Shown: positions 27,810-44,146 of the stretch, piece after piece
Numbering within the stretch: position 1 is the first letter of the stretch
How the letters are laid out: the number at the start of each line of letters is the position of its first letter
Source: Dehalococcoidia bacterium
GTDB lineage: Bacteria; Chloroflexota; Dehalococcoidia; SM23-28-2; RBG-16-64-32
Direction: 5' to 3'
Length of the DNA: 64,000 nt
Assembly: GCA_030649945.1 (NCBI GenBank)
Contig: JAUSFE010000125.1
Coordinates: 49,366-113,365 of the forward strand
Notes under the pieces: model-generated
Told to the model about the DNA's origin: nothing
Database searches by the model: none
Seen by the model: the letters and a program-made list of their open reading frames with translations, nothing else
Position numbers and translations under genes: made by a program

Positions 27810-28034
27810 CTAGGTCCGGCCGGCGGCCAGGCTGGCGTCGCTGGGGGCCTCAAATCCACAGCCCTTGTGTGTGCCATCGCAGAAGGGCTTGGCGGCGGAC
27901 TGGCCGCAGCGGCAGAGGGAGAACCACTCGCCCTCCGGAATGCGATACTCGTTCCCGTCCGCATCCACCAGCTTCGCGGGGCCGTAAACACGGTACGGGC
28001 CGTTGTTGCGGACCAGGATCGTGACCTCGGACAA
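27810..28034 (-). CDS. CDGSH-type iron-sulfur protein (small)
   Basis: The 74-aa protein has the CDGSH signature CRCGQSAAKPFCDGTHKGCGF, whose three Cys and one His bind a 2Fe-2S cluster, preceded by a beta-rich EVTILVRNNGPYRVYG stretch. The function is redox or cluster transfer, unspecified. I choose the TTG at 28034 because AAAGGAAG lies 4 nt upstream; the track's longer ORF includes GTGGGGAGTGAG simple repeats that are clearly non-coding. Confidence 0.88.
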   Translation of the reverse strand: MSEVTILVRNNGPYRVYGPAKLVDADGNEYRIPEGEWFSLCRCGQSAAKPFCDGTHKGCGFEAPSDASLAAGRT

Positions 28035-28596
28035 GTTGCTTCCTTTCAGATAGCGCGCGCCTGCAGGGGAAATGATAGCACGAGGAGGAGAGTGGGGAGT
28101 GAGGAGTGGGGAGTGAGGAGTGGCCTTGGAGCACCACGAAGGCACTAAGACACGAAGATCATTCGCGGGAGCGTTCTAGCGGGGTGTTGAACAACGGGGA
28201 CTGCAAAGGGGCGAAGCCCTGGCGCCTGTCCTGAGCGCAGTCGAAGGGCCGGGGTCTGGGGGTGTCCCCCAGATTCAATTCTCTTCTTTGGGTGGGGGGG
28301 AACGGGAACCCGTCTTCCAGCCCTCTGCTAGAGCCCCGTGGACAAATGTCGCCTAATTCTTGTGTCTTCGTGTCTTTGTGGTAAGGGCTCAGCCTAAGGG
28401 AGCGTCCTGAAGAGGCCGCCCGCCTCAGGCGGGGAGTGTTCGGCAGCCGCTCAATGGTACGAGTACCTCACCATGAGCGGGTCGGGGGCTCTTGGGCTGG
28501 CTGTGGATTCGGGCCAACCCCCTTCCCGCTCGCCCTGAGGCACTCGTAGGGCGAGCGGCGGACCACGCCGCGATCCAAGCGAATGCCTTCGTTGAC
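28035..28596. other. 560-nt repeat-only intergenic region
   Basis: No gene found. It contains GTGGGGAGTGAGGAGTG tandem units (28089-28122), CACGAAGGCACTAAGACACG (28133-28155) with its inverted partner CTTCGTGTCTTTGTGG (28367-28382), CCTGAGCGCAGTCGAAGG plus GGGTCTGGGGGTGTCCCCCAG (28229-28275), GCTCAATGGT-loop-ACCATGAGC (28450-28480) and a CCGCTCGCCCTGAGG/CTCGTAGGGCGAGCGG hairpin (28523-28560). Confidence 0.8.
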
Positions 28597-28623
28597 TGCA
28601 AACAACCTCTGTGGGAACTACAC
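28597..28623. repeat. Third copy of the MITE-end motif, at the putA stop
   Basis: Read on the minus strand: GTGTAGTTCCCACAGAGG then TTGTTTGC. It overlaps the putA stop codon in the same way as the PPOX copy overlaps its own (Val-stop written GTG TAG). Confidence 0.65.
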
Positions 28624-31600
28624 CTGGCCTGCGTCTTCCGGCGCGAACCCCCGCCGGGTGGTGTTCTCCGTCACAGAGCGCGGCGCCATGAACTGGCGCA
28701 GGTAGTCCGGCCCGCCGGCCTTTTCGCCCACGCCCGACAGCCCCAGCCCGCCGAACGGCTGCCGCCCCACCATGGCGCCGGTGATCTTGCGGTTGATGTA
28801 CAGGTTCCCCACGCGGAAGCGCCGGCGCGCCGCCTGAATGTGCCGCGGATTGCGCGAGAAGAGGCCGCCGGTGAGGGCGAAGGGGGAGTCACAGGCGATG
28901 TCCAGCGCCTCCTCAAAGTCTCTTGCCGGGAAGACGGCGAGCACGGGGCCGAAGACCTCCTCGCGGGCGAGCTCGGAGTCCAGGGGCACGCCGGTGAAGA
29001 CCGTGGGCGGGACGTAGTAGCCGCCCCCGCCAGCAGCAACGTGGGTCAGGGCCCCGGCCGTGACCGGCTCAGGGCTGGGGCCCTGAGCCACGGGAGAGGG
29101 GTGGCCCGTAGAGCCGCGACGAGAGCCTCCGTCGCCTTGCACCACCAGCGTGGCGTAGGATCTCGCGCCTGCGATGCAGGCCATGATCCTGTCGCGGGCG
29201 GCGGCGCCGATCACGGGCGGCACGAAGGTGGCCGGGTCGTGCGGGGGCCCGACGACGAGTCCGGCGACGGCGTGGCGCAGGCGCTCCAGCGCCTCAGCGT
29301 AGGCCGAGCCCACGATCACCAGCCGGCTGCAGGCGCTGCACTTCTGTCCCGCGTAGCCGAAGGCGGAGACCAGCGTGCCGGCGACCGCCTGGTCCAGGTC
29401 CGCGTCGTCGTCGATGATGATGGCGTTCTTGCCGCCCATCTCGGCGATCACGCGCTTGACGCTGCGCCGGCCCGGCCCGGCGCGCGCGGCGGCCTCGATG
29501 ATCCCGAGGCCAACGCCGCTGCTGCCCGTGAAGGCGATGTTATCGACGTCCGGGTGCCCCACCAGCGCGCGGCCCACCTGTCCGCCGGGCCCCGGCAGGT
29601 ACTGCACGACGGCCGGCGGCACCCCCGCCTCGCGCAGGATCTCCACCAGCTTGCAGGCGATAATGGGCGATTGCGCCGCCGGCTTGAGGATGGCCGCGTT
29701 GCCGCCCGCCAGGGCGCCCACGCTCATGCCGGTGATGATGGCCAGCGGGAAGTTCCAGGGCGCGATGATGGCAGCGACGCCGCGGCCCTCGTAAAAGTAC
29801 TCGCTGCACTCTCCCGGGACGTCGCCCAGGACCTGCGGCTCAGAAAGGCGCTCCGCCTGCAGCGCGTAGTAGCGCAGGTAGTCCATCGCTTCGATGACGT
29901 CGCCGTCCGCCTCGTGCCAGGGCTTGGCGCTCTCGAAGATCATGGTCGCGGCCAGCTCGAAGCGTCTGCGCTCCATGCTCTCCGCTGCCCGGCGCAAGAT
30001 GTCGCCGCGGGCGTGGGCGGGCAGGTCGCGCCAGGCCGGGAAGGCGGCGCGGGCGGCCCGGACGGCCGCGTCCACGTCCGCTACGGTCGCCTGGGCCACG
30101 CGGCCGATCACGGCGTCTGGTTCGGCGGGGTAGACGATATCGGCGTGCGGGCGATCCGAGACGCGGCGCTCGCCGATGAGCAGCGGGTAAGCGGCGCCGA
30201 ACCCGCGGCGGGCGGCCGCGATGGCGTCAGACATGCGGCGGCGGGCGTCCGGCTCGAAGAAGGGGGCCGGCGCGGCGTTGGCGAAGGGAGCACGCGCGGG
30301 CTCTGGCGTGGGCGCCCTATCGCGCGAGGGACCTGAAGCCAGCCCTGAGCCCGGCCGCAGGGGCGCTCCGCTGCGCCCACGGACTCTCGCTCGTGAGGCG
30401 GCGGCCTGCTCCGCGGCGTTGCTGGCGGCGGCGCGGGCGTTGAACCAGGCCTGGTTGGAGGTGTTCTCCAGCAGGCGCCGCACCAGGTACGCCATGCCCG
30501 GGATCACGCGGCCCACGGGGACGTAGACGCGGGTGCGGTAGCCGTCGGCGGCCACCGCCGTGCGCAGCCCTTCGGCCATGCCGTACAGCGTCTGGAACTC
30601 GATGTCACCGTCCGCTGTGCTGGCGCGGCGCGCCTTCACGATGGCCTGCGCCACGGAGCGCGGGTTGTGCGTGCCGAAGGCCGCGCGCAGGCGGGGCCGG
30701 GCGGCAAGGAGCGCGTCCGTGCAACGCTCGAATGACTGGTCCGTCTCCCGCTTCTCCTGGTAGACCGGGACGGGCCAGGAGTTCTGGCCGGCCACAATGT
30801 GCTCCTCGTCCCAGTAGGCGCCCTTCACCAGACGCACCGCGAACGGCGTGCCGCGGCGCTCAGCCAGGGTCCGCAGGCGCGCGATATCATCTTCGGCGTC
30901 GCGCAGGTAGGCCTGGACGACGATGCCCAGGTGCGGGTAGCCGCTGAACTCGGGCTCCAGCAGCAGGTCCGCGAAGGCCCGGTGCACCAGGTCCTTATAG
31001 CGGTACTGCTCCATGTCAAAGTTGACGAATGCGCCCGTCTCCATCGCCAGGCGCAGGAGGGGGCGCAGGCGCGCACGGGTCACCTCGCTGACGTACTCGG
31101 GAGCGGCGGGCTCCAGGTGGGCGCAAACGGCAGAGAGCTTGACCGAGATGTTGACGGGCGGCACGCCCTGCCACTTTTCGCCCTGAGGGCTGATCGTGTC
31201 CCCGCCGGCCGCCAGCGTCTGGATCAGCTCGCTGTAACGGGCCAGGTAGGCGTCTGCCTCAACGTCGGAGAGCGTCTCCTCGCCCAGAAGGTCCACCGTG
31301 TACGCTACCCCCTCGCCGGCCAGCTCACGCAGGGCCGGCAGCGCTTCCTGCGGCGTGGCGCCGGCGATGAAGCGGTGGGCCATGGCGAACACCCCCTGCC
31401 GCACCACCTGCGAGAGGACCGGCCGGAAGACAGGCTGCGCGGCCAGCCCGGAGGCAGTCTCGATCAGGCCGGGACCGGCGCCGCGCCCCGGCGGGCGGCC
31501 CTCCGGGCGGAAGTACTGGCGGACGTGATCGGCGATGGCGCGGGCGTCGCGCAGGGTGGGCAGGACGTCCACGAAGCGCAGCAACTTGACGCGGAAGTCA

Positions 31601-31764
31601 GGGTCAGTCGTGGCCCAGTCCAGCAGGCGCTGCTGCCACCAGGCGGGGGTCAGGGTGAGCGGGGGGTGGCCGTCAACGGCCGCCGAGAGCCGCTTCTCCA
31701 GCCCGCGGACCGAGCCTTCCAGCGCGCCCCTCCGGCCTGGCTCAGGGGAGGCGTCAACCGCCAT
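28618..31764 (-). CDS. putA: Bifunctional proline dehydrogenase / glutamate semialdehyde dehydrogenase
   Basis: Oxidises proline to glutamate in two steps. The 1048-aa fusion has an FAD-binding PRODH barrel (about 90-440; VNISVKLSAVCAHLEP, LVKGAYWDEEH, TRVYVPVG) and an ALDH domain (about 520-1030; IIAPWNFPLAI, FTGSSGVG, Glu in IAEMGGKNAIII, catalytic Cys in GQKCSACSRLV). Two low-complexity Arg/Pro/Gly insertions look repeat-derived: one in the inter-domain linker (SRARVRGRSGAPLRPGSG) and one in an ALDH loop (SPVAQGPSPEPVTAG). A TACAAT box is 17 nt upstream of the ATG. There is no N-terminal DNA-binding domain, so it is not the regulator type of PutA. Confidence 0.95.
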   Translation of the reverse strand: MAVDASPEPGRRGALEGSVRGLEKRLSAAVDGHPPLTLTPAWWQQRLLDWATTDPDFRVKLLRFVDVLPTLRDARAIADHVRQYFRPEGRPPGRGAGPGLIETASGLAAQPVFRPVLSQVVRQGVFAMAHRFIAGATPQEALPALRELAGEGVAYTVDLLGEETLSDVEADAYLARYSELIQTLAAGGDTISPQGEKWQGVPPVNISVKLSAVCAHLEPAAPEYVSEVTRARLRPLLRLAMETGAFVNFDMEQYRYKDLVHRAFADLLLEPEFSGYPHLGIVVQAYLRDAEDDIARLRTLAERRGTPFAVRLVKGAYWDEEHIVAGQNSWPVPVYQEKRETDQSFERCTDALLAARPRLRAAFGTHNPRSVAQAIVKARRASTADGDIEFQTLYGMAEGLRTAVAADGYRTRVYVPVGRVIPGMAYLVRRLLENTSNQAWFNARAAASNAAEQAAASRARVRGRSGAPLRPGSGLASGPSRDRAPTPEPARAPFANAAPAPFFEPDARRRMSDAIAAARRGFGAAYPLLIGERRVSDRPHADIVYPAEPDAVIGRVAQATVADVDAAVRAARAAFPAWRDLPAHARGDILRRAAESMERRRFELAATMIFESAKPWHEADGDVIEAMDYLRYYALQAERLSEPQVLGDVPGECSEYFYEGRGVAAIIAPWNFPLAIITGMSVGALAGGNAAILKPAAQSPIIACKLVEILREAGVPPAVVQYLPGPGGQVGRALVGHPDVDNIAFTGSSGVGLGIIEAAARAGPGRRSVKRVIAEMGGKNAIIIDDDADLDQAVAGTLVSAFGYAGQKCSACSRLVIVGSAYAEALERLRHAVAGLVVGPPHDPATFVPPVIGAAARDRIMACIAGARSYATLVVQGDGGSRRGSTGHPSPVAQGPSPEPVTAGALTHVAAGGGGYYVPPTVFTGVPLDSELAREEVFGPVLAVFPARDFEEALDIACDSPFALTGGLFSRNPRHIQAARRRFRVGNLYINRKITGAMVGRQPFGGLGLSGVGEKAGGPDYLRQFMAPRSVTENTTRRGFAPEDAGQV
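29062..29128. repeat. Palindromic element in the ALDH part of putA
   Basis: GGCTCAGGGC-TGGG-GCCCTGAGCC (29066-29089) is a perfect 10-bp stem of the same family as 16345-16372 and 19439-19464. It is in frame and encodes QGPSPEPV within an extra loop ahead of the conserved PPTVF strand. Confidence 0.75.
30290..30410. repeat. Repeat-like GC-rich segment in the putA linker
   Basis: In-frame Arg/Ser/Pro/Gly-rich stretch between the PRODH and ALDH domains, including CCAGCCCTGAGCCCGG and CGCTCCGCTGCGCCC, whose words echo the intergenic palindromes. Family relation is less certain than for the 29-kb copy. Confidence 0.45.
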
Positions 31765-31885
31765 CTGTCACACCTGCCCCTATTGTACAACGATTGGGCG
31801 GCGGCGCAGGGGAATAGAGAGGTTTCCAGCCGGATAAAGGGCCTGGTGACGGACGCGGCGGCCCTGGAACTCTATCTAGAAACAC

Positions 31886-32632
31886 TCACTCTGAATACCA
31901 GTCCCAGAGCTCCGAGCCCCAGAGGAGTCCCGCAATCGCTCCCAGCGCAAGGAAGGGACCATGCGCGATGTAGTCTCCAAACCTCCTGCGCCGTCCCGCC
32001 AGGAGAACGGCGGCGAAGAGTCCGGCGCTGAGCGTGGCGATGAACACTGCCACGATGAGCGAGCGGGGCCCCAATAGAAAGCCCATGAGCGCTATGACCT
32101 TCAGATCTCCCATGCCCAAGGCTCCACTGCCGAACGGCAGCGACAGGATGAGCAGTCCGACGGCTAGACCGATGGCAATCGCACCACCCAGAAGCACATC
32201 TGTCATCGTCATGCCCGGAAGCAGCCAGGCTGTGCAGATCGCGAGAATGACCCCGCTCAGGACGATCCGGTCGGGAAGCAGGCGCTGCTCCATGTCCGTC
32301 GCTGTGAGCGCGAGAAACGCAAGGCAGAAGACGCCGCCGAGCAGCGCTTGCGCCACATCGTCGAACTCGAGGTAGCAAGCAGCGAAGGAGGCGGCCCCGC
32401 CAGCTGCCAAGAGCACGAACCTGGGCCACAGGCGAGAGCTGCACGCCGGGCAGCGCGGCCGTACAAAGCCACCGATCAGCGGGAGAAATTCGACGCCGCG
32501 GGCGCGCGCGCGGCAATCCGGGCACCGGGAAGGCGCACCGAGAAGGGGGTTGGCGCGATAGGCGTTGGACAGCAAGAGGTCGACGGCCCAACCGGCAACG
32601 GCCCCTGCCAAGATCACAGCGACGATTGCCAT
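31886..32632 (-). CDS. Type IV prepilin peptidase (A24)
   Basis: Membrane aspartic protease that cleaves and usually methylates prepilins. The 248-aa protein has the cytoplasmic zinc-type motif (CPDC, Cys37/40; CPAC, Cys61/64), six or so further TM helices, and the two catalytic Asp: Asp113 in TATDMEQRLLPDR and Asp176 in GMGDLK. Both the large cysteine-bearing N-terminal part and the catalytic half are present, as in PilD. It is divergent from the Tad operon and is the likely processing enzyme for the Flp and TadE pilins. Confidence 0.93.
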   Translation of the reverse strand: MAIVAVILAGAVAGWAVDLLLSNAYRANPLLGAPSRCPDCRARARGVEFLPLIGGFVRPRCPACSSRLWPRFVLLAAGGAASFAACYLEFDDVAQALLGGVFCLAFLALTATDMEQRLLPDRIVLSGVILAICTAWLLPGMTMTDVLLGGAIAIGLAVGLLILSLPFGSGALGMGDLKVIALMGFLLGPRSLIVAVFIATLSAGLFAAVLLAGRRRRFGDYIAHGPFLALGAIAGLLWGSELWDWYSE

Positions 32633-32670
32633 TGGCTACATGAATATCGCGTAGAACAAGCGGAGGGCGT

Positions 32671-32692
32671 CAATTGTGTTAACAATTGTGTT
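32671..32692. promoter_or_regulatory. Operator-like inverted and direct repeat upstream of the Tad promoter
   Basis: CAATTGT-GTTA-ACAATTG is a perfect 7-bp inverted repeat, and CAATTGTGTT also occurs twice as a direct repeat 12 nt apart. It ends at the -35 box, is AT-rich in a GC-rich genome, and is well placed for a transcription factor, such as the OmpR-type regulator encoded just downstream. Confidence 0.6.
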
Positions 32693-32719
32693 GACACATA
32701 TGGATAACTGTACTTTAAT
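32691..32719 (+). promoter_or_regulatory. Strong sigma-70 promoter of the Tad regulatory genes
   Basis: A perfect TTGACA (32691-32696), a 17-nt spacer and TTTAAT (32714-32719). It is the best consensus promoter in the window and leaves a leader of about 105 nt before the small receiver-fragment gene. Confidence 0.7.
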
Positions 32720-32830
32720 AGAACTCCAACCGAAGATGCGGGAGGGCGTCTATCTTGATCGGCCGCGGACTGTGCGTGCTCCGGATCGGCACGGGGTGGC
32801 ATAATGGTATAGCGCTGGGCGGTTCCACCG

Positions 32831-33034
32831 GTGACGGCTGCGATCGAGGGATCGCGTCTAACCGGCCAATCGCTGGCGCGCTGTTGTCGTCTGGCACGTA
32901 CTACGCATATTCCCGTCGTGATCGTCTCGGAGACAACCGATGAAGAGTCGATGCTCCAAGCCTATCACGCGGACGCCGCAGACTACCTGCTGTTGGTTCC
33001 GCAAGCCAACCCACGGGGAGGGACGGTGAAGTGA
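32831..33034 (+). CDS. Half receiver-domain mini-protein
   Basis: The 67-aa ORF resembles the second half of a response-regulator receiver: IPVVIVSETTDEESMLQAYHADAADYLLLVP corresponds to beta4-alpha4-beta5, without the acidic pocket or phospho-Asp. A stop lies 7 codons upstream of the GTG, so it does not extend. Its TGA overlaps the next start (GTGA), which supports real translation. It may be a remnant that now only couples translation, or a small dimerisation partner of the adjacent regulator. No good Shine-Dalgarno sequence is visible. Confidence 0.5.
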   Translation: MTAAIEGSRLTGQSLARCCRLARTTHIPVVIVSETTDEESMLQAYHADAADYLLLVPQANPRGGTVK

Positions 33035-33762
33035 ATATAGTTCTGGTCGTAGGGGAAAGGCCAGAACAGGCGAGTTCGTTGGCGGAACGACTTGGGATCC
33101 TCGGCGTAGAGGCGATCCCGTCGGCTCGAGAATGGAAACTCGCCGTTCGGTGCCTGACCAGCCATAAGGTATCGCTAATACTGCTGGACGTTGGCGACGA
33201 CGCCGGGTCTCGCGAGTTCTTCGAGCTCGTCCGTGAAGTAACGGATATCCCGATCGTGGCGCGGGGCAGCGTCGCCCTGGCTGAACAAGCCGTGTGGTAC
33301 CTGAATAATGGAGCGGTAGACTACGTTTCCCGGACGATCCCGTCGGCCGTCCTGGTCGCCAAGATCAGCTCGTTCCTGCAGGCCGTGACGGCCGGCGCCA
33401 ACACTGGGTACATCCGTCTGGGCGATCTGGCGATAGACCTGGACCATTACTCCGTGACTCGTTCCGGCCAGGGCGTCGCCTTGACCCCGATCGAATTCCG
33501 ATTGCTTCGTGTTCTGGCCGAGAACGCCGGCAAAGCATGCAGTCACCAGGTACTGCTGGACCGAGTATGGGGCTCAGAGTTCCGGGACTGCTCTCATTAC
33601 CTGCGGCTGTACATGGGATATTTGCGGCAGAAGCTGGAGGACGATCCGAAGAGGCCCAAGATCCTGTTGACGGAGTGGGGCTACGGCTACCGGCTCGTCG
33701 ACGCCCAAAAGCAGGACGCCCGGGCCCTGCGGCGGGTGAGCTTCCGATCGGCGACCGGCTAG
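33031..33762 (+). CDS. OmpR-type regulator with atypical receiver
   Basis: The 243-aa protein has a receiver-like domain (1-120) and a clear winged helix (VALTPIEFRLLRVLAENAGK, HYLRLYMGYLRQKLEDDPKR, GYGYRLV). The receiver keeps Asp53 (LILLDV) but the acidic pair is VGER rather than D-D/E, the switch Thr/Ser position reads ARGS, and the conserved Lys is Arg (DYVSRTIP). Phosphorylation by a kinase is therefore doubtful, and no kinase adjoins it. It is the likely regulator of the Tad operon. The GTG start overlaps the preceding mini-ORF. Confidence 0.87.
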   Translation: MNIVLVVGERPEQASSLAERLGILGVEAIPSAREWKLAVRCLTSHKVSLILLDVGDDAGSREFFELVREVTDIPIVARGSVALAEQAVWYLNNGAVDYVSRTIPSAVLVAKISSFLQAVTAGANTGYIRLGDLAIDLDHYSVTRSGQGVALTPIEFRLLRVLAENAGKACSHQVLLDRVWGSEFRDCSHYLRLYMGYLRQKLEDDPKRPKILLTEWGYGYRLVDAQKQDARALRRVSFRSATG

Positions 33763-33788
33763 AACAGCTGCCTCCGACGGTTCAGCGC

Positions 33789-35333
33789 GTGTCCCGCTAC
33801 GACCGCAACATTCGCAGCGTCTGCTGCCGAGTATTGGTTGCAGTCGTTACGGTCTTGGCCTGCTCGTTGCTGAGCGCTGCCACGAGTATGGCGAGTGTTA
33901 GCGCGCAGTCCACCAGCCTTCAGATCACTTCGATCAGCACCGAAGGCTGGCCTTTGATTGACGCGACGGTTGCGGTTGTCGATGGGTCGGGACAACCGAT
34001 TACCGGATTGCCACCGCAAGCCTTCTCTGCAACGCTGGCCGGTGCGGACCTGAAGCTAACGGGGCTACAAACCACGAGCGATCCAGGTATCGGGGTTGCT
34101 GTGGTGCTCGCATTCGACGTGAGCGGAAGCATGGCCGGTCCTCCACTGGAGAATGCGCGGGCCGCCGGCCAGGCCCTGATCGCCCAGCTTGGGCCGTCTG
34201 ATCAGGCTGCCGTTGTTACGTTCGCGGACCAGCCGGTTGTGATTCAGCAATTCACCGCGGACAAGGATGCTCTCGGTGTCGCTGTCAACGGACTCGCGGC
34301 TGGTGGCAACACGAGCCTCTACGCCGGTGTCCAGGAGAGCGTGCGGCTTGCCGATACTGCCCCACTCCCCCGACGCGCCGTCGTGCTCCTTTCTGATGGT
34401 TACAACTACGGCGTCGAGGTGGTCGACCCCGCGCCATCTTTGGCCGCTGTCAGCGAAAGTTCAGTCCTCTTCATGAGTGTCGGGCTGGGATATGCTATCG
34501 ATCAGGATTACCTTTCGCAGCTAGCCACCCTGGGCCGGGGCCAATTCAGCGTCGCGCCGGCGCCAGAGGACCTGACGGCGCTGTACCGGACCGCGGCGGA
34601 CGTCCTGCGCCAGCAATATGTCCTGACGCTCGACGCTGGGTCGCTCGATCCTCACGTAGCCCATGGGGGCACTCTGCGTATCCAGACCACCGCGGGTGGC
34701 GGCGTGCTGGCGGGCGAAGCCACGATAGCACTGCCCGCAGCGCTGCTTGCGACGCCGGTAATACCGGTGACGCCGCCCCAAGCGCCGCCTCCGGCCCCGG
34801 AAGCAACCACCGCCTCGCCCGGCGAGGACTCGCTGCTCCCGTACGCGCTCGTGGCCGCCGCGGGTGCCGCCGCCATGGCCGTGGGTGGCACGCTGGTCTG
34901 GCGACGCCGGCGGCTGGTTCCGGTCGCGCAGGCGCCGGACGCTGAGACCCAGGGGCCGGAGCGCTTCGATAGGGACAGCCGGCCGGTCTCCTTCCCCACG
35001 ATTCAGCGGGCGGTGGCGAATGGCGCGCCGGGCGCCTGGCTTGAGGTTTCGCCCGGTAACCTGGTGCCGCTGGGAGATACCCCGGTCACCGTCGGCTTCG
35101 GCTCAGACTGCATGGTGATGCTCGGCAATGAGCCCTCCGCGCGCACGGAACGGGCGCGCATCTGGCGTCGCGAAGGCAACTACATGCTGCACAACCTGTC
35201 GCGCGTCGGTGGCGTCTCCATCAGCGGCCGTGCCGTCACCTGGGCAGTCCTCGAAGACGGCGACGAGATCGACATTGGGGGCTGCAAGCTCCTTTTCCGG
35301 GACGCGTTGGCCGGCGGCACCGCCAAAATCTAA
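33789..35333 (+). CDS. Secreted VWA protein with TM and FHA-like cytoplasmic end
   Basis: From the GTG at 33789 (514 aa): signal peptide (VLVAVVTVLACSLLSAATSMASVSA), a beta domain, a VWA domain with a complete MIDAS (FDVSGSM, NTSLYAG, LLSDG), a Pro-rich stretch, a TM (LLPYALVAAAGAAAMAVGGTLVW) with RRRR after it, and an FHA-like C-terminal domain (GDTPVTVGFGSDC, RIWRREGNYMLHNLSRVGGVSISG). The outside VWA could bind pilus or surface ligands while the inside FHA-like domain reads phospho-Thr or packs on partners. The track start at 33537 overlaps the regulator and is not needed. Confidence 0.8.
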   Translation: MSRYDRNIRSVCCRVLVAVVTVLACSLLSAATSMASVSAQSTSLQITSISTEGWPLIDATVAVVDGSGQPITGLPPQAFSATLAGADLKLTGLQTTSDPGIGVAVVLAFDVSGSMAGPPLENARAAGQALIAQLGPSDQAAVVTFADQPVVIQQFTADKDALGVAVNGLAAGGNTSLYAGVQESVRLADTAPLPRRAVVLLSDGYNYGVEVVDPAPSLAAVSESSVLFMSVGLGYAIDQDYLSQLATLGRGQFSVAPAPEDLTALYRTAADVLRQQYVLTLDAGSLDPHVAHGGTLRIQTTAGGGVLAGEATIALPAALLATPVIPVTPPQAPPPAPEATTASPGEDSLLPYALVAAAGAAAMAVGGTLVWRRRRLVPVAQAPDAETQGPERFDRDSRPVSFPTIQRAVANGAPGAWLEVSPGNLVPLGDTPVTVGFGSDCMVMLGNEPSARTERARIWRREGNYMLHNLSRVGGVSISGRAVTWAVLEDGDEIDIGGCKLLFRDALAGGTAKI

Positions 35334-35499
35334 CACTTTTCTTGAACCTTTCATATCTCTCGAGCAAGTGACCGCGGGTAGAATGACGCTAAAACGGAAG
35401 TGGATTGGGCGCGGACCAATCCAGAAGGGGGTGAACCACGGGAGTAATCCAGCCATAACCGGCCCCATCAACCCAGCCTATGTCTGAAGGAGGACCTTA

Positions 35500-35715
35500 A
35501 TGTTCACCATGATCAACGCACTCAGCTTTTGGCTGAAGGCGCACATCCGCAGCGAGCGCGGCCAGGACCTGATCGAGTACGCCCTGCTGGGCGGCCTCAT
35601 CGCCGGCGCCCTGCTTGCCGCCGCCGTACTTACCGGTATGACCGATGCGGTCAAGGGTATGGCTACCGGCATCGGCGAGTGCATCGACTTCGACGGCACG
35701 GACTGCCTGCCGTAA
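35500..35715 (+). CDS. flp: Flp-type major pilin
   Basis: The 71-aa prepilin has the Flp cleavage motif SERG-QDLIEYALL (Glu at +5, Tyr at +6) and a hydrophobic helix of about 20 residues, then a short tail with two cysteines (GECIDF, TDCLP) that could form a disulfide. AAGGAGG lies 9 nt upstream of the ATG. The 166-nt gap before it may hold a separate promoter for high expression of the pilin; I see no clear consensus. Confidence 0.93.
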   Translation: MFTMINALSFWLKAHIRSERGQDLIEYALLGGLIAGALLAAAVLTGMTDAVKGMATGIGECIDFDGTDCLP

Positions 35716-35781
35716 ACTAGTCGAAGGTGAGGACGGGGTGGCGGCGGCGTTGCCGCCGCCACCCCCAGTCACATTCTGCCC

Positions 35782-36249
35782 ATGATCCAACGCATCCGGA
35801 CGAAAGCGCGAAGCGAACGAGGGCAGGCTCTCATCGAGTTTGCTCTGCTCTTCCCGTTTCTCATGATGTTCCTCTTCGTGCTCCTGGACTTCGGCATCGC
35901 CATCGACAGACGAGTTGTCATCCAACACGCCGTCCGCGAGGGCGCGCGCCAGGGGGCGATCGGGCGGCCGGAGTCGGAGATTGAGACAGTTGTAATCAAC
36001 CAATCGCAAGATGTCCTCGACGCGACAGAGATAGCCATCTGCTTCGTCGATGGCCCTGATGCCAACACCTACCCAGGCAATGTCGGTGACAACGTCCGGG
36101 TCAGCGCGAACTACGTGTACTCGTTCGCGGCGGTGAGCGGACAGCTCTTGCGCCCGCTTGGAGTAGACCCGGACGACTTCGAGATAGTGATGAACCCGCA
36201 CGGTGAAGCGAGACTGGAACGCTCTGTAACCGGCGCCACAAGCTGCTAG
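35782..36249 (+). CDS. tadE: TadE-like pseudopilin
   Basis: The 155-aa minor pilin has the SERG-QALIEFALLFPFLMMFLFVLLDFGIAI processing site and TM helix, then an extracytoplasmic domain (VIQHAVREGARQGAIG, DNVRVSANYVYSFA). The prepilin peptidase upstream should cleave it. It is followed 3 nt later by the TadG-like gene. Confidence 0.9.
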   Translation: MIQRIRTKARSERGQALIEFALLFPFLMMFLFVLLDFGIAIDRRVVIQHAVREGARQGAIGRPESEIETVVINQSQDVLDATEIAICFVDGPDANTYPGNVGDNVRVSANYVYSFAAVSGQLLRPLGVDPDDFEIVMNPHGEARLERSVTGATSC

Positions 36250-36252
36250 AGT

Positions 36253-37707
36253 ATGACCATGAGACGCAGGCGAGGCTCCGGCGAGCGCGGGCAGGTGATC
36301 ATCCTTGCCCTTCTCGTGATAACAGTGACCTTCGTCGTGGGCGCGATCGCCGTGGACCTGACCCTGTGGCTCAGCGAACGGCGGGGCGCGCAGACGGATG
36401 CTGACTTCTCGGCGCTCGCCGGCGCCTTCGAACTGCTAGACCCCGACGCCAGCGCCGGCGACGCGATCCAGGCGGCGACCGATAACCTGGACGCCAACGA
36501 CGAGCAACTCAACGCCAGTCTCGCCCAGCCCATCGCGGTGGACGACAGTTGCTACGACCGCGGCGTAAACGACGCCGTGACAGTAGACGTCCGGCACGAT
36601 TCGCGTGCCCTTTTCTTTGACATCTTCGGGGTTACAGACCCAGACATCGGCGCGCATGCCAAGGCCTGTGCCGGTGCTGTCCAGGCTCCACCCAACCTCG
36701 TGCCGTTCGAGATATGGGATGACCCAGGACCATGCTTCGACACCACCGAGAAGCCCATCTTCACCGCCATGTGCCCGATCGAACTCGGCGCCCAGGGCGA
36801 CGGCTCGGACCGCGGCATACTCGACCTGGATGCACCCGACGACTACTGCAGCGACGGTGGCGGATCCGGCGACATCGCGGACGTGATCGAAAACGCGGCG
36901 GCTGGCATCTGCTTGATCAATGAGAACCCTTCCGCCGCCTGTGGGAGCGGTCCGTGGTACGACTGCGTTGCCGTACAGAACGGCAACCCTAAGAAGGTGC
37001 TGGACGGCGTAAACGCCCGCGTAATCAAGGATGGGGGCTGCGACACGGGCGGCGTACCAGGCGTGGATGACTTTTTCGAGACCGTGATCCTGGCCATCGA
37101 CCGCGGCAGTCCGTACAACAGCATCTACGAGGCCAAAGATTGCGATTCTGCCACGGCCGGCATACAGGCCAGTCCTCGCCTTGTCTCGATCGTCGTGCTT
37201 GAGGAGGACCCGCCAAACGGACTCTCAGGTGCCGGCTATCCGATCGTCGCGTTCGCCGGCTTCTACATCGCGGGCTGTGCCGCCGAGGGCGACCCTGTTG
37301 ACGACGAGTCAGACCTTGATCCGGACTGCAACGCTCCCGGAATCAGGCGCCTTGAGCCTACCGAGGACTTGTACGTGGCGGCGCCTGGCTTCGGCCCCCT
37401 TCGCGCTCCCAACGCCTGTCACGGCGGGCGGCCCCCACACGGGGTGCAGACCTCCTGCCCGCCCACGCCATCACCATCACCCAGTCCCACGCCAACCCCG
37501 ACGCCCACACCGAGCCCAGTCGCGACAGACACACCATCACCGACGCCGCCGGGGCCAACGCCGACACCGGGCCCTGGCCCCTCCAGCTGCGGCTCCCCCG
37601 GCCACTGCGTGGTCTATGGGCGCTTCGTCAACCTGATCATATCTAACGCCGACATCGGCACACCATCGGACCAAACAACTCTATTCGGCATTTCACTGGT
37701 GGAATGA
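36253..37707 (+). CDS. tadG: TadG-like surface protein with Thr/Pro-rich tail
   Basis: The 484-aa protein has an N-terminal RRGSGERGQVIILALLVITVTFVVGAIAVDLTLWLSERRGAQ-type segment split here as GERGQVIILALLV and a TM, as in Tad-locus TadG proteins. The body is acidic and Cys-rich (at least 12 Cys), suggesting disulfides outside the cell. Residues about 415-450 are a PSPTPTPTPTPSP repeat, a likely wall-spanning or glycosylated stalk. The pseudopilin Glu+5 is missing, so processing is uncertain. A VWA domain, present in some TadG proteins, is not evident here but is found in the 33.8-kb protein. Confidence 0.82.
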   Translation: MTMRRRRGSGERGQVIILALLVITVTFVVGAIAVDLTLWLSERRGAQTDADFSALAGAFELLDPDASAGDAIQAATDNLDANDEQLNASLAQPIAVDDSCYDRGVNDAVTVDVRHDSRALFFDIFGVTDPDIGAHAKACAGAVQAPPNLVPFEIWDDPGPCFDTTEKPIFTAMCPIELGAQGDGSDRGILDLDAPDDYCSDGGGSGDIADVIENAAAGICLINENPSAACGSGPWYDCVAVQNGNPKKVLDGVNARVIKDGGCDTGGVPGVDDFFETVILAIDRGSPYNSIYEAKDCDSATAGIQASPRLVSIVVLEEDPPNGLSGAGYPIVAFAGFYIAGCAAEGDPVDDESDLDPDCNAPGIRRLEPTEDLYVAAPGFGPLRAPNACHGGRPPHGVQTSCPPTPSPSPSPTPTPTPTPSPVATDTPSPTPPGPTPTPGPGPSSCGSPGHCVVYGRFVNLIISNADIGTPSDQTTLFGISLVE

Positions 37708-37725
37708 ACAAGGAGGGGGTCAGCA

Positions 37726-38559
37726 ATGGCCAGGATTGAACAACTGAAACTCGCGGGATCGAATAGAGCGCTGCTGCTGCTCGCGCTGATAGCCGGTCTA
37801 GTAGCCGCGGTCGTGGTCTTCATCGCCGTGAGCAACGGCGGAGACGATAACGCGAACCCGGCGGGTGTGTCTGATAACGTGACTAGCGCCCTGATCGCCA
37901 CGCAAAGTATTTCAGTGGGAACGGAGATCACCAGCGACATGGTGAAGATCGTTAGTGTACCGAACGACCTGCTGGTGTCAGGGGCGTACGCCGACTCTGA
38001 ACTGGTCGTCGGGGACGTGGCCAGGGTCGCGATCGCCCAGGGCGAACAGATAACCAGCAACAAGGTCGGCATCGCCGTGCCGGACAAGGGGCTTTCGGGC
38101 GTTCTCCCGCTGGGCATGCGCGCAATCGGCGTCAATGTGGAGCAAGTAACCGCGGTGGGCGGGCTGCTTCTCCCGGGCGATCATGTGGACATCGTTGCCA
38201 CCTACAAGATAAAGCGAGCGCCAGGTCTGGCCGAGGACGAGTACATCCTTCGCACGGAGACCATACTGCAGAACGTAGAGATCCTCTCGGTCGGGCAGGA
38301 GGCGCAAGAGGCCTCCGCTCGGATCGACACCTCTGCCGACCCGAGCACAACCAACCCGAGCTACACCAGCGGTGATCTTCCAGACAACGTTGAAGAGCAG
38401 CCCAGGGCCAACACGATCACGGTCGCGCTGAGTCTTGCTGACGCGCAGTTGCTGATCTCGTTTCAACAGCGCGCCGATCAGGTCTGGGCCGCGGAACGCG
38501 CATTTGGTGAAACGGCGCGGGCTGAGATTCCGCCGCACGAAGTGATTCTGGTCGAGTAG
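37726..38559 (+). CDS. cpaB: Flp pilus assembly protein CpaB/RcpC
   Basis: The 277-aa protein has one N-terminal TM (ALLLLALIAGLVAAVVVFIAV), then a SAF domain (ALIATQSISVGTEITSDMVKIV) and the CpaB core (VLPLGMRAIGVNVEQVTAVGGLLLPGDHVDIVATY), with a C-terminal TITVALSLADAQLLISFQQR. It stabilises the pilus channel in known systems; no RcpA/CpaC secretin partner exists here. AAGGAGGGGG precedes the ATG. Confidence 0.92.
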   Translation: MARIEQLKLAGSNRALLLLALIAGLVAAVVVFIAVSNGGDDNANPAGVSDNVTSALIATQSISVGTEITSDMVKIVSVPNDLLVSGAYADSELVVGDVARVAIAQGEQITSNKVGIAVPDKGLSGVLPLGMRAIGVNVEQVTAVGGLLLPGDHVDIVATYKIKRAPGLAEDEYILRTETILQNVEILSVGQEAQEASARIDTSADPSTTNPSYTSGDLPDNVEEQPRANTITVALSLADAQLLISFQQRADQVWAAERAFGETARAEIPPHEVILVE

Positions 38560-38598
38560 TGATCTTCAGGCGCGAGAATAAGAAGGGAATGGGGACGC

Positions 38599-39837
38599 AT
38601 GGCCAGGGTTCCTGAAGTCCTGATCGTTGACCAGGACCCGGCAGCCCGGTTCGAGGTGAAGCAGCTCGTCCGCGGGGCCCAGCTGGGGTTCGCCGGCGAG
38701 GCCGGCCTTGGCACGGAGGCGGTCTCGCTCGCCAGCGAAGCGAAGCCGGACGTCATCATCTGCGGGATGAGCCGCCCACCCGCGCGCTCGCTGCAGACGA
38801 TCGAGGCTCTGCTCGACGTGCTGCCCGAGACCCCGATTATCGCGTACGCCCGCGAGGAAGAAGTGGACGTAGTGCGCCAGGCGATGCTGGCCGGCGCGCG
38901 CGATTTCTTCCAGATCCCGGCGGAGGTCGAGCGTCTCGTAGATTCGATACGCTCGGTGCTCGAATCTGAAGAGCGCAAACGCCTGCGGCTGTCGGGTCAG
39001 TCGAAGGGCATCGGGCCCAAGGGCCTCGTGATCGCCATCTTCGGCGCCAAGGGCGGCGTCGGCAAGACCACGATCGCCACCAACCTTGGCCTCGCGCTGG
39101 CCGGCAACCTCGGCCAGTCGGTCGTGCTCGTGGACGGAGACAACAGCTTCGGTGATGTCGCGGCGATGCTGGATATGCGCCCGGACCGCAGCGTCGTCGA
39201 CTTCATCCGCGACACTGACAAGATCGACAGGACCAACGTCACCGAATACTTGATGCGCCACCCGAGCGGCCTCTGGGTCTTGCCTGCGCCCCGCGAGAGC
39301 CTGATGTGGCGGTCGGTGTCACCGGACGCCTTCCGCAAAGTGCTCAACATAGTCGCACGCCGGTTCGACATCGTGCTGGTGGACTCCGCAGCGATGCTCA
39401 GCGATCTGGCGTTGGCGATCCTGGACGAGGCCAACATGGTGCTCTGGGTGACCTCCACTGACTTCTCCAGCATCAACAACTCGCTCCTCGGGTTGGAGGC
39501 GCTGCAGCAGATCTCTTATCCCGAAGCGCGCATCCGCCTCGTACTGAACGTGACTTCACCAGATGACGGCGTCCGGCCGGCCAAGATCGAAACAGTGCTG
39601 AAGCGGGACTTCTTCTGGTCCATCCCGTATGACAGGGATATCCGGATCGGGGCCCAAGTGGGCAACGCGGCGGTAATCGCGAGCCCGGGCGGCAACGGCG
39701 CGCGCACCCTGATTCAACTCGCCCAGGCCCTTACCGGCGGCAGCGCCCCGGCAGCGCCGCGCCCGACTCGATCGTTCAGATTTTTCAAGCGTCGGGAACC
39801 AGCACCAGAGCCCGTTGTAGAGCAGGAGGGGGGATAA
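38599..39837 (+). CDS. cpaE: CpaE/TadZ-like ATPase with degenerate receiver
   Basis: The 412-aa protein joins a receiver-like N-domain (1-125) to a MinD/ParA-type ATPase (from about 135). The receiver has lost its phospho-Asp (VIICGMSRPP; Gly instead). The ATPase has the deviant Walker A FGAKGGVGKTTIATNL and VLVDGDNSFGDVAAML. In other systems TadZ/CpaE localises the pilus machine to the pole. It lies 4 nt before cpaF. Confidence 0.93.
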   Translation: MARVPEVLIVDQDPAARFEVKQLVRGAQLGFAGEAGLGTEAVSLASEAKPDVIICGMSRPPARSLQTIEALLDVLPETPIIAYAREEEVDVVRQAMLAGARDFFQIPAEVERLVDSIRSVLESEERKRLRLSGQSKGIGPKGLVIAIFGAKGGVGKTTIATNLGLALAGNLGQSVVLVDGDNSFGDVAAMLDMRPDRSVVDFIRDTDKIDRTNVTEYLMRHPSGLWVLPAPRESLMWRSVSPDAFRKVLNIVARRFDIVLVDSAAMLSDLALAILDEANMVLWVTSTDFSSINNSLLGLEALQQISYPEARIRLVLNVTSPDDGVRPAKIETVLKRDFFWSIPYDRDIRIGAQVGNAAVIASPGGNGARTLIQLAQALTGGSAPAAPRPTRSFRFFKRREPAPEPVVEQEGG

Positions 39838-39841
39838 ACAC

Positions 39842-41212
39842 ATGGTGTCGCCAAAGCAACAGGAAGATAAACCAGAATCGGAATGGACCATACCGTCCCG
39901 GCTGACCGACCAGGTCGCCGTCAATGACTTCGCCCCCCTGTCCGCTGAAGACGAAGAGGTAGTGCAGAAGGTGCACACCCGAGTCATCCAGGACATGGAT
40001 CTGTCCGCGGTCGAGCGTCTCGGACCATCGCGAGGGCGCGAGGCTATCGAACAGGGCGTACGGACACTTCTAGCCGAAGTCGCTGCGCACCTCTACGGGG
40101 AGCGCAAGGAGATGGTCATCCGGCGCGTAATAGACGACGCCGTTGGCCTCGGCCCGCTGGAGCCGCTCATCCAGGACAAGTCGATCTCCGAGGTCATGGT
40201 CAACGCCCCGGACGAGATCTACTTCGAGCGCGACGGCATCATCTATCTGTCTGCGCTGCGATTCCGCAACGTGGACCACATCATGCTCGTCATCGACCGA
40301 ATCATCTCGCCGCTCGGGCGGCGCGTGGACGAGTCGTCGCCATTCGTGGACGCCCGCCTGCCCGACGGTTCGCGTGTCAATATCATCATTCCGCCGCTAA
40401 TACCCCGCTCGCCGGTCGTCACCATCCGCAAGTTCCGCCCCGACAAGTACTCCATGGAGGACCTCGTCGGGAACGGCACGCTGACCCCGGAGGTGTGCGA
40501 CTTCCTGCGTGCCAGCGTGCAACTGCGCCTGAACATGGTGATCTCCGGCGGAAGCGGTACCGGCAAGACCACCGTGCTGAACGCGCTCTCCGCATTCATC
40601 CCAGAGCGTGAGCGCATCGTGACCATCGAAGACCCCATCGAGCTCAAGCTCCAGCAGCGTCACGTCATCAGCGCGGAGGCCCGGCCGCCCAACATCGAGG
40701 GCAAGAACGAAGTGACGCAGCGCGACTTGCTGCGAAACACCCTGCGCATGCGCCCGGACCGCATCATCGTCGGCGAGGTGCGTGGACCGGAAGCGTTCGA
40801 CATGATGCAGGCGATGAATACCGGCCACGAAGGATCCCTCACGACCGTGCACGCGAACTCCTCCCGCGACGCGCTGGCGCGAATCGAGAACATGGTCCTC
40901 ATGGCGGGCTTCGACCTCCCGACGCGTGCAATCCGCGAGCAGATGGCGGCAGCCTTCCACCTGATCATTCACCTCGCGCGGTTCGCGGACGGCGCTCGCC
41001 GCATCATCAACATCAGCGAGGTCGTCGGTATGGAAGAGGCCACCGTCACGATGCAGGACCTCTTCGTGTTCGAAACGACATCGATCGCCGAGGACGGCCG
41101 GATCATGGGCGAACTCACGAGCACGGGAATCGTTCCCACGTTCGCCGACCGGTTCGCCAAGGCCGGGGTGCCGCTGGAGTCCATCCTGCCGAACATTGGC
41201 CGGTGGGCCTGA
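39842..41212 (+). CDS. cpaF: CpaF/TadA secretion ATPase
   Basis: Hexameric type II/IV secretion ATPase that powers Flp pilus assembly. The 456-aa protein has an N-terminal helical domain, [18 protein letters not shown], Walker [16 protein letters not shown], the Asp box ([10 protein letters not shown]), Walker B ([20 protein letters not shown]) and the His box [12 protein letters not shown]. Full length for the family. Its TGA shares a base with the ATG of tadB (TGATG). Confidence 0.96.
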
Positions 41213-42183
41213 TGACCCTGGCGATCATCGCGTCCACCCTGGCGTTCGTGGCAGTCGCCGCGCTAATTCTGGCCGTCACCTCGATTTCGCCAGCCAGACG
41301 CGCAGAGGCTCGCCTCTCACGCCTGGACCGGACAAAGGAAAAGGAATCGACGCCAGTAGAGAACGTCCTGCGGACGGACACTGGCACGTTCCCACTACTG
41401 CGCGGTTTCACCACCGGAAACGCCTGGTCCGCCCGGACGGCGCAAGACCTGGCCCAGGCGGGCTGGGGTCTCAAGGTCAGCGAGTACCTCCTCATCAGGA
41501 TATTCGCCGCCGCCGCCGCACTGATCCTCGGCGCCCTGTTGTTGGGTAGCGCAGGCCCGGGAGGTGTGCTCATCGCGATAATCCTGGGCGCAGTTGGCTT
41601 TATGCTCCCCGCCGTGCTACTGCGCTACTACCGCTCGCGCAGGCAGCGGGCGATCAACGGCCAGCTGGCGGAGATGCTATCGCTGCTCTCGAACTCACTC
41701 CGGTCCGGATTTGCCTTCACGCAGGCCGTGGAACTCGCGGCGAAGCAGCTGGGCCCTCCGATTACTCAGGAGTTGGAGCGCTTCTTACACGACATCTCTC
41801 TCGGAGCGCCGACCGATGTCGCCCTGCAGCAGATGGCCGACCGCACCGGCAGCTACGACCTCGACATGATGGTTTCGAGCATTATGATCCAACGCAACAC
41901 CGGCGGCAATCTCTCCGAGATCCTGGACAACGTCGCGGACACGATCCGCGAACGAGAGCGGCTCCAGGGAGAGATCCGCGCCTTGACGTCCTCGCAGCGA
42001 TTTACGGGTTTAGTGCTCTCTGTCTATCCCATATTCCTGGGGGCCCTGTTCTTCGCTCTGGCGCCGGGGACCTGGAAGGTGCTCTTCGAATCAGAGCTGG
42101 GGCGCATTCTGCTCATCTCGGCCGCTACGCTGCAGGTGATGGGGATGATAACCATTCGCCGCATTCTGGCGCTGGAAGTGTAG
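41212..42183 (+). CDS. tadB: TadB-like inner-membrane platform protein
   Basis: The 323-aa protein has a T2SSF/TadB domain: N-terminal TM, two TMs near 100-145, the cytoplasmic LLSNSLRSGFAFTQAVELAAKQ helix bundle with TGSYDLDMMVSSIMIQRNTGGNL, and a C-terminal TM. I use ATG 41212 rather than the GTG at 41203 because of the exact TGATG coupling with cpaF. Confidence 0.94.
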   Translation: MTLAIIASTLAFVAVAALILAVTSISPARRAEARLSRLDRTKEKESTPVENVLRTDTGTFPLLRGFTTGNAWSARTAQDLAQAGWGLKVSEYLLIRIFAAAAALILGALLLGSAGPGGVLIAIILGAVGFMLPAVLLRYYRSRRQRAINGQLAEMLSLLSNSLRSGFAFTQAVELAAKQLGPPITQELERFLHDISLGAPTDVALQQMADRTGSYDLDMMVSSIMIQRNTGGNLSEILDNVADTIRERERLQGEIRALTSSQRFTGLVLSVYPIFLGALFFALAPGTWKVLFESELGRILLISAATLQVMGMITIRRILALEV

Positions 42184-42195
42184 GGGGGTGATTCC

Positions 42196-43095
42196 ATGCT
42201 CGCATTGATCGCTGCCGTCGCCGCTTTCGTCTCGGCTAGCTCGCTGCTGGCCTGGTTTGGCGGCGCGATGCGGAACCCCGTCGAGGCCCGGATTTCCAGG
42301 CTCGCGCCTGTCGGATCTAGTTCGGCGATGAAGGCCCCCTTTTCCGACCGCGTTTTCATGCCGGTGCTGGATGGCCTCACCAGCGGGCTGATCCAGCTGC
42401 TGCCGCACAGGTTCGTGTCGCGCGTAAGCCGTCAGCTCCTCGCCGCCGGCTCACCCATGACCACGCAGGCATTCTTCACCCTGGCCTTGCTGTGCGGGCT
42501 GGCCTTTCCGGCTGCAGGGCTCTTCTTCCTCGCACGTTCCTCCGATGGGGTCGCCGGCTGGATGATCGTCGTCGCCGCCTTCCTGGCCTTCGCAGGGTTC
42601 ATCGTGCCGTACACGTGGCTTCGGAGGCGTGTGCGCCTACGCAAGCTCACAATCTGGAGGCGGCTTGCCGATGTGTTCGACATGGTGACGGTGTGCGTGG
42701 AGGCCGGCCTGGGCCTGGATGCCGCGATGAGACAGGTGGCAGCAAAGCTGAAGGGCCCCTTTTCCGACGAGATTTCCTTGATGCTCCGGCAGGTTGGCAT
42801 GGGCCGGCCGCGCCGCGAGGCTCTTGAGGACCTGGCGTATCGTGTGGACGTGCCCGAAGTGACAACGTTCGTGCATGCCATCGTACAGGCCGAGCAGCTT
42901 GGGACCAGCCTTGGACGCGTCCTCCGGGCGCAAAGCCTGAGCCTGCGCGTCCGCCGCCGGCAAAAGGCGGAGGAGATGGCGCGCCGCGCCCCGGTGAAGA
43001 TGGTGTTCCCGCTGGTGCTCTTCATCATGCCCACCTTCTTCATCGTGACAATCGGCCCGATGTTCGTCCATCTGACGGAGTACCTGAAGGACTAA
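42196..43095 (+). CDS. tadC: TadC-like inner-membrane platform protein
   Basis: The 299-aa partner of TadB has several TMs and the T2SSF core DMVTVCVEAGLGLDAAMRQVAAKL, with DVPEVTTFVHAIVQAEQLGTSLGRVLRAQ and a final TM (MVFPLVLFIMPTFFIVTIGPM). GGGGGGTG precedes the ATG. TadB and TadC are thought to form the platform at which CpaF acts. Confidence 0.94.
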   Translation: MLALIAAVAAFVSASSLLAWFGGAMRNPVEARISRLAPVGSSSAMKAPFSDRVFMPVLDGLTSGLIQLLPHRFVSRVSRQLLAAGSPMTTQAFFTLALLCGLAFPAAGLFFLARSSDGVAGWMIVVAAFLAFAGFIVPYTWLRRRVRLRKLTIWRRLADVFDMVTVCVEAGLGLDAAMRQVAAKLKGPFSDEISLMLRQVGMGRPRREALEDLAYRVDVPEVTTFVHAIVQAEQLGTSLGRVLRAQSLSLRVRRRQKAEEMARRAPVKMVFPLVLFIMPTFFIVTIGPMFVHLTEYLKD

Positions 43096-43099
43096 CGAG

Positions 43100-44146
43100 A
43101 TGTCACCGGACGTGGGGCTGCGGCCCGACGCGTACGAGGTGCTGTTTGTTCACCCGACGGCGCCGACGGAATTGCTCGCGACCATGTACTGGGCGCTGGC
43201 AGGCGACTTGCAGAGGCGTCGCGCGGCAGGTGAGCACGTCGACGATGAGCTGCACCACCTCACACGGTCGTACGAATGCGTGGGGGACTCCGACCGCCGC
43301 GCCGGCTACAACGCATCCCTCGGGTTGCTCACCCAGCCATTGATGCTACGGCCCCTGCCTCCCTCCCGGCGGTCGGTCCTGGGACGCCTGCTTCGTCGCT
43401 CCACCCATGGACCGATTGACCTCTACGAGGTGATGGGGGTAGCCCGGAACGTTCCTCCGGAGCTTCTCCCGCACGCACATCCAATCATGCGCGACCAATA
43501 CCTGAGGTTGGGCGCCGGCAAGCGGCAGACACAACTACTCGAAGCGCTAGAACGTTCTTACGAGACGCTACGCTCACCCGAGGCCAGAGATCGGTACGAC
43601 GCGCGCGCCCCCAAACCGCAGAACGGCATTCGGCCAGATTCATCGGCAGGCGCCGGTGACGCGCCGCCCAAACGGACTGCCACGGCAGCCGCGGCGCCCA
43701 AGACCAAGAAGCGGCTAAGTCACTCGAGGGCCGTAACGGCGGCGAAGGCGACGCGAGTGACCCCGCCTGCCTCTCCCGCGAACAAGAACAAGTCCTCGCC
43801 TCCCCAGAAGCGACCGAGTGCAAAGGCTCTGCCGCTGTTGTCGCGCGCGGCCGCGTCGGTCCTGTCAATGGTTGCGGCTGGACTTCGCCTGGCATATCGA
43901 GTCATGCGCTGGGGCGCAAGCGAAGCAGGTAGCGCATGGCAGAGGATGCGTTCCCGACGCGCCACGCTTCCAGCCGTTAGCGGGCCGCCTCCGCCGGCTG
44001 TCATCCATGCCCCCGGCGATCGTGCGAAGCGCGTGCCATCGGAAGTTGAAGACCAGTTTCTCGGCAGAGTGGCAACATCCGTCAAGGAGAGCGAGAGTCA
44101 TCTGCACGGCGCGGATCCTGGCCCGGGGCCTGGGAAGTCTCCGTAA
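43100..44146 (+). CDS. Tad-locus protein with two degenerate J-domain-like modules
   Basis: The 348-aa protein starts 4 nt after tadC. Two N-terminal modules resemble DnaJ J-domains in their first and last parts: DAYEVLFVHPTAPTELL to LTRSYECVGDSDRRAGYN, and DLYEVMGVARNVPPELL to LERSYETLRSPEARDRYDAR. The HPD triad needed to stimulate Hsp70 is absent in both. The C-terminal half is Ala/Lys/Pro-rich with one short hydrophobic stretch. I infer a scaffold for the pilus platform, not a co-chaperone. Its last 65 nt overlap the convergent DUF192 gene. Confidence 0.7.
   Translation: MSPDVGLRPDAYEVLFVHPTAPTELLATMYWALAGDLQRRRAAGEHVDDELHHLTRSYECVGDSDRRAGYNASLGLLTQPLMLRPLPPSRRSVLGRLLRRSTHGPIDLYEVMGVARNVPPELLPHAHPIMRDQYLRLGAGKRQTQLLEALERSYETLRSPEARDRYDARAPKPQNGIRPDSSAGAGDAPPKRTATAAAAPKTKKRLSHSRAVTAAKATRVTPPASPANKNKSSPPQKRPSAKALPLLSRAAASVLSMVAAGLRLAYRVMRWGASEAGSAWQRMRSRRATLPAVSGPPPPAVIHAPGDRAKRVPSEVEDQFLGRVATSVKESESHLHGADPGPGPGKSP

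Follow-up and report, generated by a model that had tools for sequence, protein, structure and literature searches.

The window, a stretch of 64,000 nucleotides analysed at its full length, comes from contig 81 of a soil Chloroflexota bacterium whose genome, here called G000, comprises 3.39 Mb in 142 contigs. All genomes compared with it are MAGs, and the genus of G000 is represented by G000 alone. At the locus described here, a divergent prepilin peptidase gene of the A24 family (31886..32632, reverse strand; Pfam Peptidase_A24, 4.6e-12) is followed on the forward strand by a promoter, a 67-codon frame, the gene for a regulator that we call R2, and a Tad pilus cluster. The cluster opens with a gene encoding a VWA protein with a weak FHA assignment (33789..35333) and continues with Flp pilin, TadE and TadG-like genes (35500..37707), CpaB/RcpC (37726..38559), CpaE/TadZ (38599..39837) and a set of genes with syntenic homologues in relatives (39842..43095), which we take to be CpaF, TadB and TadC from established knowledge of these families; all of these lie on the forward strand. 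Rfam gave no match within positions 28000-46000. The order prepilin peptidase, promoter, R2 and VWA gene was found again in an independent assembly, G014, in which a 54% identical prepilin peptidase gene likewise adjoins R2.

The near-consensus promoter reported in a first-pass annotation of this DNA was confirmed as a sigma-70-type TTGACA-17-TTTAAT site (32691..32719, forward strand; -35 box at 32691-32696, -10 box at 32714-32719) with a score of 11/12 to consensus. Only three such sites occur in the 64 kb, as against none in five locally shuffled copies; a simple promoter scan requires A at position 2 of the -10 box and hence passes over TTTAAT. Overlapping the -35 box is a direct repeat of 2 x 12 bp with a period of 12 (CAATTGTGTTAA / CAATTGTGTTGA; 32671..32694, forward strand), which occurs nowhere else in the window and is absent from the promoters of relatives. 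The first-pass annotation had described this segment as an AT-rich inverted and direct repeat: its direct part stands, but the inverted part reduces to self-palindromic short words without an inverted-repeat pair, and the CAATTGT repeats that it put forward for footprinting, being absent from all relatives, do not behave as a conserved operator. A weak candidate for an operator is the element ATGGATAACTGTAC in the promoter spacer (32700..32713, forward strand), with similar words in the regulator leaders of G002 and G014. The spacer (32697-32713) also carries TATGGATAACTG, a possible operator, and DnaA-box-like words akin to it (TGTGGATAA, TGTTGATAA and TGTGGATAT) recur in three relatives, G002, G014 and G003, again within the promoter spacer (the regulator leaders concerned are those of L007, L008 and L009, in no stated order); read as a DnaA box, the spacer is perfect in G002 only, and nothing of the kind is present in G006 or G009. 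Further downstream, the ribosome-binding site of R2 (GGGGAGGGA; 33015..33023, forward strand) falls within the end of the 67-codon frame, GGGAGGGAC is common to the R2 leaders of G000 and G014, and the stop of the small frame overlaps the R2 start in a GTGA (33031-33034), as previously noted.

R2 (33031..33762, forward strand, GTG start) is an OmpR/KdpE-like protein with a receiver-like region at residues 1-112 and a winged-helix DNA-binding domain at residues 146-222, the order typical of the OmpR/PhoB family. Pfam recovers Trans_reg_C at 5.4e-22 and Response_reg at 1.2e-05, the latter below the Pfam cut-off, and the AlphaFold model (mean pLDDT 87.8) contains a full receiver and a winged helix. 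By both sequence and fold, the nearest solved relative is KdpE (4kny/4kfc); at 134.8 bits against an NCBIfam equivalog cut-off of 325, R2 lies outside the KdpE equivalog. The five positions on which a receiver depends read G-E-D-G-R in G000, that is, Gly8-Glu9 for the acidic pair, Asp53, Gly79 at the switch T/S and Arg101 at the Lys. A response regulator counts as atypical, with a pseudo-receiver, once one or more of the residues DD, D, T and K (five in all) are missing (PMC12632262), and R2 falls within this definition; it keeps the D and one acid and lacks the full set (DD, D, T/S, K) of a canonical phosphorylatable receiver. The earlier claim that the acidic pocket, switch residue and Lys had all been replaced thus holds for the last two but only partly for the pocket, in which Glu9 is kept.

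The same pattern extends across the family. Gly occupies the switch position in 7/7 R2 proteins and Gly-Glu the acidic pair in all six that cover it, and the Lys position holds either Arg or Lys, the latter in G003, G006 and G009. The phosphorylatable Asp is retained in G000, G014, G011, G003 and G002, and is replaced by Asn in G006 and Ser in G009. In the genus comprising these last two genomes, the Asp-less receiver nonetheless shows a dN/dS of 0.062 (Nei-Gojobori, one genome pair), and for this reason we consider the domain to be kept there for something besides Asp phosphorylation; from the sequences, we infer that this role extends to the family as a whole. In the tree, the clade nearest R2 (Dehalococcoidia, Thermoflexaceae, HR29; support 81/80) has a pseudo-receiver pattern of its own, in which the switch residue is Gly and the Lys is replaced by Pro, and no Tad genes were seen in its available flanks. 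The degeneration of R2 may predate its tie to the pilus. In a KdpE-like clade from Dehalococcoidia, Tepidiforma and others (L071, L064, L096, L087, L097, L093, L089, L116 and others), the shared pseudo-receiver pattern consists of Ser at the first position of the acidic pair, Gly as the switch residue and Pro instead of the Lys.

A second feature particular to R2 lies in its DNA-binding domain. Codons 170-187 (33538..33591, forward strand) are bounded by Cys170 and Cys187 (33538-33540 and 33589-33591), both of which are invariant in the six R2 proteins that cover them, whereas in the alignment neither is present in any of 94 other OmpR-like proteins; Cys187 is additionally shared by all four proteins of a companion regulator, R1, described below. 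These two are the sole cysteines of the R2 of G006, and the R2 model puts one immediately ahead of helix alpha2 and the other where the recognition helix begins. Such a distribution suggests that the private cysteines could form a thiol or metal switch, and two OmpR-type regulators are known to respond to cysteine oxidation, RitR at Cys128 (PMC5965902) and CosR at C218 (PMC4943160).

R2 itself is not a gene remnant. The first-pass annotation had proposed to check conservation in relatives, and of the 15 family genomes 7 carry the regulator at this Tad locus, with no R2 in the 10 other genomes of the order; the copy in G009 is a fragment. In G000, G014, G011, G003 and G006, five of these seven, R2 shares its contig with the VWA gene of this Tad subtype, which comes after it; in G009 the VWA gene follows the kinase-like gene introduced below, and in G002 the contig ends before any such gene is reached. 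Closely matching CpaE proteins (63-68% identity) are confined to genomes with R2. Genomes with only a distant CpaE (about 40%) have no R2, except G014 and G009, in which the contigs end before cpaE, and the distant Tad locus of G040 (43% CpaE) has neither R1 nor R2 alongside. A search of the genome contigs with R2 alone gave no match, and an alignment-based search recovered the same R2 family members along with other OmpR proteins, none of the latter beside Tad genes. That R2 regulates the pilus is, on gene position, a good inference. G000 also carries a second, divergent Tad locus (L146:2350-9593, on G000:C105), whose CpaE is 40% identical and which shows no R2-like regulator in the stretch read.

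Four relatives of G000 (G002, G003, G006 and G009) encode at the same locus not only R2 but also R1, a complete OmpR-type regulator, and a degenerate histidine-kinase-like protein of about 300 aa whose gene sits between R2 and the VWA gene. The resulting cassette joins two regulators of the pseudo-receiver type to a kinase-like protein that is receiver-like at its N-terminus. We located such three-gene cassettes, under purifying selection, at L009:10363-12847, L011:5190-7654, L008:142-2574 and L018:4624-6817. In an alignment read by eye, the N box of the kinase-like protein has Tyr, His or Phe in place of the ATP-binding Asn, and its G1 motif is disrupted; the structural model of this protein has a pLDDT of 69 and was used for fold class only. 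In the G006/G009 genus, dN/dS is 0.12 for the kinase-like gene and 0.21 for the R1 receiver (Nei-Gojobori, one genome pair). In G009 (L018:5437-7837), R2 is broken past residue about 135 and the kinase-like and VWA genes share one frame, which either decay or an assembly error would explain. R1 (above 410 bits) and the kinase-like protein (above 420 bits) are both confined to these four genomes: across 393 genomes of the class, the next match to the kinase-like protein scores about 75 bits, a family-wide search found as the best other R1 match in G000 an ordinary regulator of 172 bits, and only ordinary kinases were found elsewhere in G000.

Phylogenetic reconstruction with 57 proteins resolved R2 as one clade (7 rows, 100/99) and R1 as another, with bootstrap values that are rough. 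G000, G014 and G011 form one clade, the sister of which is G002, an R1 genome. R1 and the kinase-like gene are both missing from G014, and the latter from G011, whose contig starts inside R2 so that R1 cannot be judged there. These relationships point to a single loss of R1 and the kinase-like gene in the common ancestor of G000, G014 and G011, with a piece of R1 presumably surviving in G000; we prefer such a loss over a gain in the other genomes, as a gain would leave the R1 piece in G000 unexplained. An exact TTGACA precedes R1 in the R1 genomes, or R2 in G014, in 5/5 relatives examined, which suggests that the promoter of the window is the former R1 promoter.

The R1 piece in question is the 67-codon frame (32831..33034, forward strand), which the first-pass annotation had taken for half of a split receiver domain with a working partner. 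A weak C-terminal receiver match is indeed present (Pfam Response_reg, E = 0.0066, 17 bits, profile positions 63-97 of 111, below cut-off), but only residues 9-55 (about 32855-32995) are receiver-like and the split domain does not hold. Against a profile of the four R1 proteins the small frame scored 26.5 bits, with a match spanning R1 positions 55-101 of 231, compared with 10.4 bits against an R2 profile. When 103 OmpR-like proteins from the loci compared were ranked by Smith-Waterman score, ranks 2, 3, 4 and 6 fell to the four R1s and rank 1 to another R1-like protein of G003, and the R2s came 63rd or below. Given this preference and these ranks, the half receiver most likely comes from the interior of R1, as the deletion relic of a once complete regulator gene. 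It occupies the syntenic position of R1, before R2, and compared with full-length R1 it has lost the first half of the receiver (beta1-beta3) and the whole DNA-binding domain; sequences between the promoter and 32831, and in the G014 leader, resembled the R1 N-terminus no better than shuffles. Separately, G003 carries an R1-like regulator away from Tad genes (L019, G003:C260, about 6330-7250; 216 bits to the R1 profile), and it is this protein, along with R1 of G002, that the half receiver matches best.

Several other readings of the small frame can be weighed against this evidence. Its 67 codons are stop-free, codon-position GC (0.67/0.51/0.66) is not far from coding, and the frame overlaps R2 in the GTGA, all of which would suit a functional small protein, namely a shortened R1 that has been retained to assist or inhibit R2 as its partner or inhibitor. 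We regard this as quite improbable, since a polypeptide without beta1-beta3 cannot form a receiver, GTG 32831 has no visible Shine-Dalgarno, and the end codons are R2 leader, running through its ribosome-binding site, rather than receiver. The half receiver is also absent from G014, an outcome of the kind that the first-pass annotation had itself named as counting against its proposal, and its counterpart in four relatives is the full-length R1. Coupling to R2 with an irrelevant protein sequence would explain both the GTGA and the placement of the ribosome-binding site within the frame; such a translated leader seems improbable, however, in that G014 keeps the same R2 leader without an overlapping upstream frame and the ribosome-binding site belonging to R2 is itself strong. 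A chance frame or mis-assembly unrelated to R1 might be invoked given the MAG origin of the genome and a Pfam match that is weak by itself, but is very hard to credit against the R1 preference at a syntenic position and the gene order shared with the independent G014 assembly. With R1 and the kinase-like gene lost from the lineage of G000, we therefore read the half receiver as most likely a deletion relic and not a signalling partner.

The remaining alternative concerns R2 itself, which might still be phosphorylated at Asp53 by a non-cognate kinase or acetyl phosphate. The Asp present in five genomes, the Lys in three and the Glu of the acidic pair are compatible with this. Nevertheless, with Gly at the switch in every R2 and at the first position of the acidic pair, strong purifying selection on the receiver where the Asp is gone, no kinase gene at the G000 locus and a degenerate one in relatives, we rate it as low in probability as the coupling leader. 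Control without phosphorylation, as the first-pass annotation had proposed, is for R2 well supported by its tie to one Tad subtype, its lost catalytic residues and purifying selection, and on this reading of the sequences R2 probably acts without phosphorylation. The accompanying suggestion of three degenerate receivers talking to each other found no support. CpaE does combine a receiver-like N-terminal domain with a ParA/MinD-type ATPase, and its receiver does have Gly in place of the Asp, just as claimed; an atypical receiver is, however, a standard part of CpaE/TadZ (PMC13170226), so the protein adds nothing to the three-receiver idea, and the CpaE of the window has the same Asp-less architecture without notable difference.

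Taken together, we consider it probable that G000 retains a relic of R1 as the half receiver and a lone R2 acting without phosphorylation, both derived from a three-gene Tad cassette. In the ancestor, R1 and R2, both OmpR-type pseudo-receivers, and the degenerate kinase-like protein would have been encoded behind a strong promoter at a family-specific Tad locus. The lineage of G000 would then have lost the kinase-like gene and R1, with the internal R1 piece, whose homology is established, staying behind in a loss that the tree implies, and R2 would have been left alone under the former R1 promoter. With its predicted receiver fold and its DNA-binding domain retained but without phosphotransfer residues, R2 could bind DNA independently of phosphorylation and regulate its own leader, the Tad genes or both. 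Its activity might depend on how much of it is present or on some signal other than phosphate, for which oxidation of, or metal binding at, the two private cysteines is the leading candidate. A more specific proposal, possible but on the unlikely side, is that the Tad locus originally held a complete pseudo two-component system, made up of two pseudo-receiver regulators and a pseudo-kinase that were all conserved despite lacking phosphotransfer chemistry, in which signalling had shifted to the cysteines of the DNA-binding domain, and which was trimmed to R2 in G000. What turns bacterial pseudo-receivers on and off is still an open matter (PMC12632262), for which these loci provide a natural series at one pilus operon, ranging from R1 and R2 together with a degenerate kinase to R2 alone, and the private cysteines a concrete alternative input. 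For annotation, the lesson is that a small receiver-like frame next to a regulator may be the remnant of a lost gene.

Comparison with known systems places each component in context. Among solved proteins, the kinase-like protein of the relatives comes closest in sequence, and second closest in fold, to DivL, the Caulobacter pseudo-histidine kinase (4q20), from which it differs in its N-terminal receiver-like stretch, its broken N box and G1 motif, its location at a Tad locus and its absence from G000. The cassette of the four relatives resembles CmrRST of Clostridioides difficile, where one operon encodes a kinase together with two OmpR-type regulators, at least one of which has a pseudo-receiver, and where hetero- and homodimers have been proposed (PMC12548384). 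CmrR and CmrS have a canonical appearance, whereas here degeneration affects the kinase-like protein as well as both regulators, and G000 is left with one regulator of the set. RitR (PMC5965902) and CosR (PMC4943160), both fold matches of R2, are OmpR-type proteins in which a cysteine replaces phosphorylation as the switch; the RitR cysteine lies in the linker, whereas the two invariant cysteines of R2, a putative switch, lie in the winged helix. The closest parallels are ChxR (PMC3960148) and HP1043 (PMC8345958; R2 also matches its structure, 2hqr, in fold), which, as reviewed (PMC12632262), share with R2 the OmpR architecture and replaced receiver catalytic residues, and which act independently of phosphorylation, as we propose for R2. 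Unlike them, R2 forms part of a KdpE-like branch that is confined to a single Chloroflexota family and linked to a Tad pilus locus, and most R2 proteins still have Asp53.
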